NCBI GenBank assembly: GCA_947594855.1
Contig: CANQEL010000003.1
Location: 103,120-167,119, forward strand
From: an uncultured Lachnospiraceae bacterium
GTDB lineage: Bacteria > Bacillota > Clostridia > Lachnospirales > Lachnospiraceae
Direction of reading: 5' to 3'
Length of the DNA: 64,000 nucleotides
The position numbers were made by a program, and so were the translations under genes. The notes below the pieces were generated by a model, which was given only the letters and a program-made list of their open reading frames with translations, made no database searches and had not been told where the DNA came from. This document shows, piece after piece, positions 32,457 through 37,168 of this stretch (position 1 is its first letter; each line of letters opens with the position of its first letter).

Positions 32457-35400
32457 TTAGTATGCACGTTTACACAATTTCATACCCTGAATATTATATT
32501 GCCTTTCCTGATTAGTAGTTTTTGTGATACATATCACGTTTGCACTATTATCGACTGGAATTTCAAAACTGGAAATTGTATTAGCTTTCCAACATGATTG
32601 TACTGATGTTTTTGCACAGCTAACCGATGTTTCATTACCTACAATCTTAGATTTCAAATCTTCTTTTGAAGCAATTACTTCATCACCCACATTAGCAAAA
32701 TATGCGGAACCAATAACTCCCAATTCACTATACATCTTACAGTCAATCGAAGCATAATCTAAATTCACTGCCGATTTATCAGGCTTTATGTAGAATGCCA
32801 CAACATCCTTTGGACCAAGTTTTACTTCACATTCCCCATCTCTGAAAGTGATTTTATCCTCACTCACATTTGTATATGCCAGATTTTCCTTAGTCATTTC
32901 TATGACAAGATTCTCAGACTCATACGGATGCTCTTTCAGGAAAGTTATGGAGGTAATCGTTATCTTCTTATTTTTCGTTGTAAAGCTTATATCCAACGCC
33001 ACCGGGTTTTCCTGAAGCTTATCCTCATCACTGGCCTTTGCCGTCATATATCCGGTCTTAAGATAATAACACTCCGTGTTTTCAGTATCCTGTGTAACAG
33101 CTTTGGACCAAAGCTGAGTTCCGCCTCCATATTTTGATGAAGTATCCGTCATGCCCAAAACGGTAGAAAGTGTCATGCTTACTTTACTGCCATCGTCTGC
33201 TTTGGCACAAACTTTTATGGCTTCATACTGCCTGAAATCAAATCCAGATTTATCCGCATTTAGATAGAGGCCTAAGTTTTGTTGATTAGTCGCTGCAGTC
33301 ACCTCAATCCCCTCCTGGGTAAAAGCAAGGTTTTCAATGGTTGAGTACGCCTTGTTCGCTTCTGTCAAATCTAGTGTATAGTCCTGGACTTCAGGTGCTT
33401 TTACAGTAAGTGTAAGTGTTTTTTTCAAACTCGGATTTGACTTTGGTATAGCGACGATATTGATTTCGGTTCCGCCCGCAACATTTGCACCAACAGTAAG
33501 GTTTCCGCCTGCGTCAATGGAACATCCCGGCACTTCGGGTTCTATGCTAAGATTAATGGTGGTGTCTGGATTCTTACCATCTTTTGAATTGATCTCAGTA
33601 TATATTTTTATACTTGTACCGGGTTCTATCTCAGTTACTCTATCTACTCTATCACCGGCATAAATAATAAAGCCCGTAACCTTAGGTATTCTCACTCCAA
33701 GCGTAACAGTTCCAAAAATTTCAGGATTACTTTTTGAAACTGCCTTCACTGTAAAGCTTGTTCCTTCCTGCACATCTTTATCAATCGTTACCTTCCCGTC
33801 GGTCTTGTTAATCCTTATTCCCTCAACAGCAGGTTCAATGCTCCATTCAACTGCTGTTGAATAATTTCCGGTTCCGCTGACTGTCGCTGAAAGCTGTGTT
33901 ACAGTATCAGAATAAAGCTTGGTACCCTCTTTCGTATCTATTGTCACTTTAGTCACTGCAGGTGCCTCTGTGGGTGCTTCCGTCGCCTCCGGGTCTTTCG
34001 TCGGCTCCGTTGTCGGCGGTGCAACCGTCACATCCCTTACAAGCGTTATGGATTTTATCTTAATCTCTGCCAGCGGGTCAGCCGTATCCTCTTTCTGATA
34101 GGTGTTGTATTTTATGAACACTCCCTGCGCGGCATCCTTTATGCCTGACAGATTCAGTGTGTATGGACTTGAGCCCGCACTGAACGTTGTATACTGCTCG
34201 CTTCCTACTATTGGGCATTTCGAGCTGTCTGCTCCTGACCAGTAGTCTGTGGCTGCACCCGCAGGTATCTCACCCTTAAGGCTTACCGCCATCTCGTATG
34301 CCTTTTCTGTCTCATATGAGATTTCCAGGCTCTTATACTGCGACAGGTCTACGGATGTATGCGCGTCGTTCAGGTAGAAACATATGCCGTGTCCGCTGTC
34401 TGCAGATGAAAGGGCTACGCTTACCGTTCCGTCCTCGTTATACTCCGCTGTTCCTTTTGCATCCATGAACGCCTCGTTTGCCTTGTTTATGTTTACCTTA
34501 AGGTCTGCATACGGGTCTTCCGTTACAGAAGGTTCATCTGTAGTTCCCGGCTCTTCCGATGTGTCAGGTTCTGCTGATGTACCGGGTTCCTCTGATGTTC
34601 CAGGCCCAGGTTCCTCTGTTGCCGGTGGCTGTGTGGATACCGTTGCAGGGTCTTTTATGAGTTTTATGGATTTTATCGTCATTTCTGCATCAGGAAGGCT
34701 TGCTGCATCTCCCGCATTGTAAGTGTTGTATTTTATGAACACTCCGCCTGCCGTTTCCTTTATGCTGCTTATGTCAAGCCTGTATTCTCCCTCGCCCTTG
34801 CTGAATGTTGTATACTGCTCGCTTCCTACTATCGGACATTTAGAGCTGTCTGCTCCGTCCCAGTAGCTCTCTGCTGCGGTATCCGGTATATATTCCTTAA
34901 GGCTTATTGCCATCTCATATGCATCATTTGAATTATATGCTATGACAAGCTCCTTATAATCCGTAAGGTCTACCGAAAGTTTTTCCGCATTAAGGTAGAA
35001 GCATATGCCGTGTCCGCTGTCTGCAGGTGAAAGGGCTACGCTTACCGTTCCGTCCTCATTATATGTGGCTTCCTCTGCTGCGAATGCCTGGTTTGCTTTT
35101 GTCATCGGTACTACAAGCTCAGATGCATACGGGTCGTTAGTCACTGTCGGCCTGTCAGGAGCATCCGTCGGCTTTACTGTAGGCGGTGCATCTGTTTTAG
35201 GCGCTTCCGTTGCAGGTTTATCCGTCACGTCAGGCACGTCAGTTGCCGTACCGCCCGGTCCGGCTGTAGGTACATCCGTATTTTTGGGTATAATAATAGA
35301 AGGATCCTGCGGTATGTCCTGTGTCTGACCCTTCGTCTTTACTGTTACAGTACACTTAAGCCTGGTAACCTTTTTTCCAAGCTTATATACTGCCGTTATT

Positions 35401-35691
35401 TTTGCTTTTCCTTCACTTACGCCCTTTATTACTGCGCATGCTTTGTTTCCTTTTGTCTTTGTCTTTTTCTTTAAGATCTTTACTACTGATTTTTTGCTGG
35501 TCTTCCAGCTTACCTTTGCTTCCTTTTTGCCGTTCTTTAATTTAATAACGGCCTTCTTTCCAACTTTTACAGTTACCTTTTTCTTAAGGGATGGCTTTTT
35601 TACCCCCCCCCGCACGAATTTGGCCTGCCGGTACGAGCGTGAGCGCAAGCGTCAGGCACATGAGTGCGGCGATACTTCTTTTTGCCTTCAT
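32457..35691 (-). CDS. Secreted multidomain surface protein (Big2 + four related beta-sandwich/CBM-like modules); signal peptide out of frame through a G9 tract
   Basis: ATG 35691 (RBS GGAG) gives MKAKRSIAALMCLTLALTLVPAGQIRA-GGGKKAIP*; the other frame continues GGVKKPSLKKKVTVKVGKKAVIKL...(Big2) to 32457. ORF track entry 32457..35648 starts at a TTG inside the signal peptide region. Confidence 0.8.
34020..34500 (-). repeat. Repeat module copy B within the surface protein
   Basis: ATAEYNEDGTVSVALSSADSGHGICFYLN...DSSKCPIVGSEQYTTFS..., close DNA and protein match to copy A. Confidence 0.85.
34655..35115 (-). repeat. Repeat module copy A within the surface protein
   Basis: EATYNEDGTVSVALSPADSGHGICFYLN...DSSKCPIVGSEQYTTFS... 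Confidence 0.85.
35603..35611 (-). repeat. Poly-G(9) homopolymer tract in the coding region at the end of the signal peptide
   Basis: taccccccccc gcacg on +; nine consecutive C. Confidence 0.95.
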
Positions 35692-35950
35692 AAGTTTATT
35701 CTCCAATCATTTTACTTGGGTGCGGGATATCCACGCACCCTGTATATCTATATTACATCTTTATTATTTATTTGTAAATAGCTGACCGCTTTTTTATGAA
35801 ATGCTGTTATTGCGACAAAATACGCGCAAATCACCAGATTAAGGTGAATATGAAATTATTAAATTTTTAGAAACTGCACCGGCAAATGCCTTTTATGCCA
35901 GGATTAATTTAGAAATATAACGTATGTATATATTGGATAAGTTAAAACAT

Positions 35951-36205: not shown

Positions 36206-37168
36206 TTGAGAAGAAACAATTATCAGAAAGGGGAGAATCCTTGCATGTCAATAATAACACAACAGAAATATCAACGTCAACGTATGGTTAAATATGCCCG
36301 GAATCATTCCGTGACTGAAACAGCAATACGTTACAGGGTAAGCCGAAAAACCGTATATAAATGGCTGGCACGGTATGATGGCACCGCCATGAGTTTAGAG
36401 GATCGCAGCCATAGGCCAAAAACATCACCCAGAGCCCACACGGAAGGAGAACTCAGAAAAATACGCCGCAGGTTAAAAAGGCACCATTGGACAGACCTGA
36501 TACTGGTATATCAGGAACTGGTGGAAAGAGACGGGTATAAACGGAGTTATGGGGGATTCAAAAGAATCTGTGCAAAATTAAAAGCGGCAAAACCGAAAAA
36601 ATCAAAAAAGGACAGGAAGCCAAAGCCATACAAACGTGCAGAATACCCGGGACAGAAAATACAGATAGACGTAAAATATGTACCGTCATACTGTCCGACA
36701 AACGGTGAAAAGTATTATCAGTATACAGCAGTTGATGAGTGCAGCCGGTGGACATACCGGGAAATGTATGATGAACACAGTACATACAGTTCAAAGGATT
36801 TTCTGGAGAAGCTGATAAAGAATGCGCCTTTTCCGATAAGGGAAGTGCAGACAGATAATGGTACGGAATTTACAAACAGACTGATAGTAACAAAGAGTGA
36901 TCATTTAACACTGTTTGAAGGAGAACTGCTAAGACTTAAGATAATATACAACCGCATACAGATAGCAACGCCAAGGCATAATGGGAAAGTGGAGAGGCAG
37001 CACCGCATAGACGAGGAAAGATTTTACAAATATATGAGGATGTATAATCTTGAGGATGGAAGGAAGCAGCTGGCAGTATATCAGAAGAAATCAAATAATT
37101 ATATGAAGACATGCCTGAACATGATGACACCGAACCAGGTGCTAGAGAAGTATCTGGGAATCATGTAA
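36206..37168 (+). CDS. IS481-family DDE transposase
   Basis: HTH RNHSVTETAIRYRVSRKTVYKWLARY...; rve core GQKIQIDVKYVP...YQYTAVDECSRWTY, REVQTDNGTEFTN, RHNGKVERQHRIDEERFY. Start probably at the internal MSIITQQKYQRQ. Confidence 0.92.
   Translation: MRRNNYQKGENPCMSIITQQKYQRQRMVKYARNHSVTETAIRYRVSRKTVYKWLARYDGTAMSLEDRSHRPKTSPRAHTEGELRKIRRRLKRHHWTDLILVYQELVERDGYKRSYGGFKRICAKLKAAKPKKSKKDRKPKPYKRAEYPGQKIQIDVKYVPSYCPTNGEKYYQYTAVDECSRWTYREMYDEHSTYSSKDFLEKLIKNAPFPIREVQTDNGTEFTNRLIVTKSDHLTLFEGELLRLKIIYNRIQIATPRHNGKVERQHRIDEERFYKYMRMYNLEDGRKQLAVYQKKSNNYMKTCLNMMTPNQVLEKYLGIM

Follow-up and report, generated by a model that had tools for sequence, protein, structure and literature searches.

A candidate slipped-strand poly-G locus between a signal peptide and a large surface protein in a Lachnospiraceae genome, with similar tracts across the family

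A gene on the minus strand of the 64,000-nt stretch of Lachnospiraceae DNA analysed here (the window) raises the question why a signal peptide is separated, by a run of nine guanines, from a large surface protein that continues in another reading frame. As read from the sequence, ATG 35691 opens a Sec signal peptide and is preceded by a GGAG ribosome site. The signal-peptide segment encoded from this start codon, MKAKRSIAALMCLTLALTLVPAGQIRA, is followed by the pure G9 tract, and translation ends with AGGGKKAIP and a stop codon. A preliminary description of the locus had given the start codon (35691), the GGAG motif, the signal peptide and the tract (35611-35603) exactly, in coordinates as well as in sequence, and had placed the end of the signal-peptide frame at GGGKKAIP, which is confirmed by the short ORF listed below together with the other features.

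35750-35778, minus strand: sigma-70-like promoter TTTACA-17-TAATAT (9/12 matches)
35701-35704, minus strand: GGAG Shine-Dalgarno sequence, 9 nt 5' of the ATG
35584-35691, minus strand: short ORF in the present, presumed OFF state, comprising signal peptide and GGGKKAIP (35 aa, then TAA)
35603-35611, minus strand: G9 homopolymer, proposed slippage site, directly 3' of the signal-peptide codons, with GCG sharing its last G
35596-35601, minus strand: A6 run 3' of G9, second possible site of a one-base frame change
32457-35610, minus strand: long open frame of the mature surface protein, 1,051 codons 3' of the tract (dN/dS 0.22-0.45 versus relatives)
35331-35609 (approximate limits), minus strand: Lys-rich N-terminal domain, common to about 20 paralogs in the genome
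34608-35117, minus strand: repeat module 1, modelled as a beta-sandwich (pLDDT 90) resembling CBM11, CBM4 and CBM86
33993-34502, minus strand: second repeat module, sharing 65% identity with module 1
34597-35111, minus strand: 515 bp without a mismatch to the contig C10 paralog, the surrounding DNA being about 79% identical

The long frame, shifted by one base relative to the signal peptide, extends over 1,051 stop-free codons from the tract to position 32457, in agreement with the earlier claim of more than 1000 further codons in another frame. Read in silico from the upstream stop, the product comprises 1,082 aa at eight G, 40 aa at nine G and 35 aa at ten G, and signal peptide and long frame are in register at 8 or 11 G, as had been predicted. 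The ORF finder begins the long frame at TTG 35648 within the signal-peptide region and thereby hides the signal peptide, a point likewise recognized before. Translation from this TTG without a signal peptide was rejected, due to the absence of a ribosome site at that position and to the use of the signal peptide by relatives. For the promoter TTTACA-17-TAATAT, one site was found versus 2.3 expected by chance, which is weak evidence alone.

Most probably, the locus is a slipped-strand (poly-G) contingency locus caught in the OFF state. DNA polymerase slippage on G9 would add or remove a G. At nine G, translation would stop eight codons past the signal peptide and the exported protein of roughly 1,080 aa would not be made (OFF); at eight or eleven G, signal peptide and mature protein would share one frame (ON). 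Slippage at G9 would thus toggle synthesis and export of the surface protein, and several such switches would give rise to a surface make-up differing between cells of one population. Both the variation in tract length among cells and the reversibility of the change are what we infer from this arrangement. The preliminary description had read the locus in the same way, and this reading is supported by the G-run spectrum of the genome, the other G9 tracts, a C9/C8 pair of prepilin-like genes, the same layout in three genera and the coding constraint downstream of the tract.

The junctions of the closest relatives bear on whether the frame change is a switch or a fixed lesion. In the full-length paralog nearest to the focal gene (C10, 63% identity) the junction reads GCG GGG AAG GTA AGC AAG CCT TCC, to which the focal junction would correspond codon for codon at eight G (GCG GGG GGG GTA AAA AAG CCA TCC). 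The closest ortholog (G006:C2, 74%) reads GCG GGC GGG GGT AAG AAA CCT TCC, and the GCG-to-CCN spacing is 15 nt in both relatives versus 16 nt in the focal gene. As the interrupted run of G006:C2, GCGGGCGGGGG, has the same total length as the focal run and is in frame through the following bases, a single fixed, non-switching indel in the A6 run is possible in the focal gene. Deletion of one A from A6 (35601-35596) also rejoins the frames and yields AGGGKKPSLKKK, the exact junction peptide of G006:C2. Relative to this ortholog, one extra A explains the frame as well as one extra G, and the sequence alone cannot tell whether the G9 or the A6 run moved last. An early pseudogene, fixed by a one-base indel in either run and without switching, would also fit the redundancy provided by the paralogs and the IS481-type transposase directly upstream (36206-37168, plus strand), which together with a P-type ATPase forms the neighbourhood of the gene. 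We nevertheless consider it unlikely: apart from the frame change at the tract, the gene shows no break, its signal peptide and ribosome site are intact and no stop interrupts the 1,051 codons of the long frame, which is under purifying selection against the paralogs and orthologs compared. Furthermore, the break coincides with the only G run of eight or more in the window, and other genes with the same pattern occur in mixed states.

An assembly or consensus error, i.e., an ordinary gene with a true tract of eight G, is a less probable explanation still. The genome is a draft of 33 contigs and homopolymers are error-prone, but an Acyl_transf_3 gene of the same assembly (C19:32670) is in frame at exactly nine G, with 383 aa versus 72 or 63 aa at eight or ten. 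Thus, there is no general one-base excess in the assembly, and two genes would need errors in the same direction. Together with the large neighbouring genes, which are unbroken (leucyl-tRNA synthetase, cation ATPase, Tex, and GH3), the acyltransferase frame makes such an error less likely. In addition, the MAGs closest to the focal genome have NODE contig names, suggesting short-read assembly, although the platform of the focal genome itself may differ, and short-read chemistry is not likely to introduce such errors in runs of nine.

Programmed recoding, in which RNA polymerase slippage on G9/A6 or +1 ribosomal frameshifting would still produce a share of full-length product at nine G, is very improbable. 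GGGGGGGGGTAAAAAAG is a plausible slippery stretch, and in other systems long runs are established sites of transcription slippage, but no slippery sequence is conserved, the orthologs and paralogs lack the tract and are in frame without recoding, and no stimulating structure stands out. Folding of the leader is no better than that of shuffled sequence (fold z = 0.15), and an RNA-structure switch is therefore not supported either. Rfam contains no family matching the focal region. The leader carries a hairpin GGGTGCG...CGCACCC at 35718-35740 (minus strand, no Rfam match), and a similar inverted repeat, GTGCGG...CCGCAC, is situated upstream of a relative in G006 (G006:C49).

The slipped-strand reading gains weight from the number of G runs in the genome (2.48 Mb). 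Exact counts are two G7, two G8, six G9, and no longer runs, compared to 20.5 G7, 3.3 G8, and 0.26 G9 expected per 2.2 Mb of coding sequence from synonymous-codon shuffling of 129 kb of the genome. The Poisson probability is 4e-5 for at least six G9 runs at a generous mean of 0.6 and 5e-7 for at most two G7 runs at a mean of 20; of all Gly codons, GGG is used least (9%). G9 is in excess and G7 is depleted, and the tracts are thus beyond chance. Two of the six G9 tracts, those of the focal gene and of C1:141608, are located at the 5' ends or 5' regions of genes from a single surface-protein family with about 21 members (binomial P = 1e-4). Not every G8 run can be taken as a switch; this notion was rejected, many of these runs occurring in ordinary genes, at rRNA-like contig ends (G001) or on a contaminant-like contig (G006:C77).

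The G9 tract at C1:142206 is located inside TTGACA-N10-G9-TAGAAT, with a 19-bp spacer at nine G, upstream of the sister gene C1:141608, a BspA-LRR member of the focal surface-protein family. At C1:226601, a prepilin-like gene is divided by C9 into parts of 132 and 204 aa, and the ortholog in G007 (82%/78% identical) carries C8 and is intact with 327 aa. The tract at C1:109877 lies at the end of Wzz, 10 nt 5' of the ATG of a capsule-type kinase gene (L044). Across species, this junction contains G9 here and G8 in both G006 and G007, and seven further species lack a tract. With eight G, the stop codon of Wzz and the ATG of the kinase overlap, and with nine G Wzz ends earlier; judged from this overlap, tract length may affect translational coupling. 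In a genome scan with the kinase, the two nearest relatives were rabbit-gut ("Lapin") Lachnospiraceae MAGs. The tract at C6:92871 is intergenic. Several loci are associated with surface functions, as in a phasome: a surface-protein promoter, the prepilin-like gene, the acyltransferase and the Wzz/kinase junction. Altogether, with the focal tract included, the genome contains at least four or five candidate switches (split ORFs, a promoter spacer, and perhaps gene junctions), most of them at surface-protein or surface-polysaccharide genes.

Tract lengths differ between species at two non-focal loci, namely Wzz/kinase (G9/G8/G8) and the prepilin-like gene (C9/C8). MutS is intact, and the missing mutator background was counted against switching; loss of MutS as a cause was rejected on the same ground. 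With MutS intact, as is likewise the case in Neisseria, tract length itself would set the switching rate. A G8 tract at C5:51079 (L048) is located in an intergenic region after a gene for a 1,597-aa STAND-like protein and before a D12-class adenine DNA methyltransferase gene, and is possibly part of a phase-variable defence or methylation locus.

About 21 proteins encoded in the genome carry the same Lys-rich N-terminal domain as the focal protein, nearly all with an in-frame signal peptide, and except for C1:141608 the G tract is absent from these paralogs. The focal protein had been described as Big2 plus repeated modules. The repeats were recovered as CBM-like beta-sandwich models, but Big2 was not: no Pfam domain passes in the focal protein, neither Big_2 nor a CBM. 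The repeat module model (pLDDT 90.1, pTM 0.84) finds its best PDB matches mostly among CBMs or CBM-bearing enzymes (CBM11, CBM4, CBM30, and Roseburia CBM86), at E 2e-4 to 1e-3 with a TM of only about 0.5 and an identity near 12%. The modelled fold suggests that the product is likely a secreted or surface polysaccharide-binding protein, a binding role that we infer from these matches. An LPXTG-like motif is absent from the 1,063-aa frame. The 515-bp identity with the C10 paralog (L042) suggests recent gene conversion among family members, or else an assembly mis-join at a repeat; gene conversion between both genes could shuffle surface-protein modules. A scan of 85,462 species genomes with the focal protein returned no relative, and exact-pattern scans of viral contigs detected neither the focal tract flank nor the prepilin-like gene.

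In the Lachnospiraceae, 102 of 150 genomes (one per genus) contain one or more tracts of at least nine G. In nine genomes picked for several tracts, and thus not a random sample, 41 tracts were classified mechanically, with at least one mis-assigned frame (L147), as coding in frame (8), coding out of frame (11), non-coding with a -10-like hexamer directly 3' (12), and other (10). The layout of signal peptide, poly-G and large exported protein was observed in three further genera. In case of G136, one of four surface-protein paralogs of about 700-745 aa is ON and three are OFF; a 708-aa phosphodiester-glycosidase protein of G018 is ON; and two lipoproteins of G109, with G9 and G10 just 3' of the lipobox, are both OFF. 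In G002, which belongs to the same genus as the focal genome, three acyltransferase genes carry tracts, two of them G8 and out of frame and one G9 and in frame. Such mixed ON/OFF states fit switching better than decay, for which all genes would be OFF, or neutral codon runs, for which all would be ON.

A further property of the tracts is the dinucleotide that follows them. Among 55 tracts of nine or more G that were not selected by flank (loci L031-L177 and the window), 27 (49%) are followed by TA, compared to 7-9% of runs of four or five G (Fisher test, P at most 7e-10). Counts for GGGGGGGGGTA and its reversed control ATGGGGGGGGG are 208 and 34, respectively, in the 150 family genomes, versus 61 and 37 phylum-wide (all summed by hand); the TA-flank ratio differs between family and phylum with P = 1e-6. 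The TA flank is present both in coding tracts and in those preceding -10 boxes. The pooled tract set was also searched for a palindrome surrounding the tracts, and none was found; this set included tracts chosen for their TA flank, so that the flank rule relies on the unselected 55 tracts and the family counts only. It is tempting to speculate, at somewhat less than even confidence, that Lachnospiraceae run multi-locus poly-G phasomes comprising surface proteins, lipoproteins, acyltransferases, glycan genes and promoters, and that the shared rule of nine or more G followed by TA reflects one so far undescribed cause behind the formation, maintenance or slippage of the tracts.

The locus type itself is already known; the family-wide extent in Clostridia and the TA flank rule are new. 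A literature search, thin on subscription journals, retrieved no paper on slippage switches in Lachnospiraceae. Phase variation by DNA inversion, as for cwpV of Clostridioides difficile, differs from the slippage proposed here. Similar to the focal candidate, cwpV encodes a phase-variable, large repeat-rich cell-surface protein in a clostridium (PMC4737114). The closest precedent is given by the sortase-pilus switches bbr_0113 and bbr_1889 of Bifidobacterium breve UCC2003, in which pili are switched on by the loss of one base from the G10/G11 tract that separates the Sec signal from the LPXTG pilin (PMC9187656). Similar to the focal gene, Sec signal and mature surface protein lie in two frames across a G tract (G11 and G10 there), a -1+3n change fuses the frames, and more than one locus per genome is present in a Gram-positive gut commensal. 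Slippage was measured in B. breve, whereas it is proposed for the focal locus, and the pilin belongs to a sortase cluster, whereas the focal gene encodes a multi-module carbohydrate-binding-like protein without LPXTG. Multiple G8-G11 tracts per genome at surface glycan and protein genes, mixed ON/OFF states, and tracts in promoter spacers as well as coding regions are shared with the poly-G/poly-C phasomes of Campylobacter jejuni and Neisseria (e.g., cgtB with 8/9 G, PMC6437147). Unlike in these Proteobacteria/Campylobacterota, the tracts described here occur in Clostridia with intact MutS, are fewer per genome and show the TA flank bias. Listeria inlA (PMC2831843) also carries a 5' homopolymer that truncates the product of a Gram-positive surface-protein gene after few residues, but there a single gene with a poly(A) run is affected instead of poly(G).

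Slippage-driven multi-locus phase variation is known for the most part from pathogens, an apparent restriction that a 2025 review treats as an open question (PMC11868660); here, the pattern recurs in a dominant commensal family of gut Clostridia. If switching is confirmed, cells of one strain would differ stochastically in their surface make-up, in their sensitivity to phages and in polysaccharide binding, and many Lachnospiraceae surface genes would be mis-called by annotation pipelines as broken or mis-started.

Further tracts were observed in this family. The three acyltransferase-3 genes of G002 are located within 15 kb (G002:C21 98500-118400, L122), and every one of them contains a separate G8 or G9 tract. 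In G154 (L186-L193), genes with G9-G11 tracts occur in mixed states, most of the tracts being followed by TAT, and several of these genes are of glycan type (hexapeptide transferase, AMP-binding enzyme). Finally, G8-G9 tracts are found at the Shine-Dalgarno position, 6-10 nt before the ATG, in L110, L120, L109, L112, L117, and L104 as well as at the Wzz/kinase junction; glucuronyl-esterase and cellulase genes are among them, and length changes in these tracts might tune translation.
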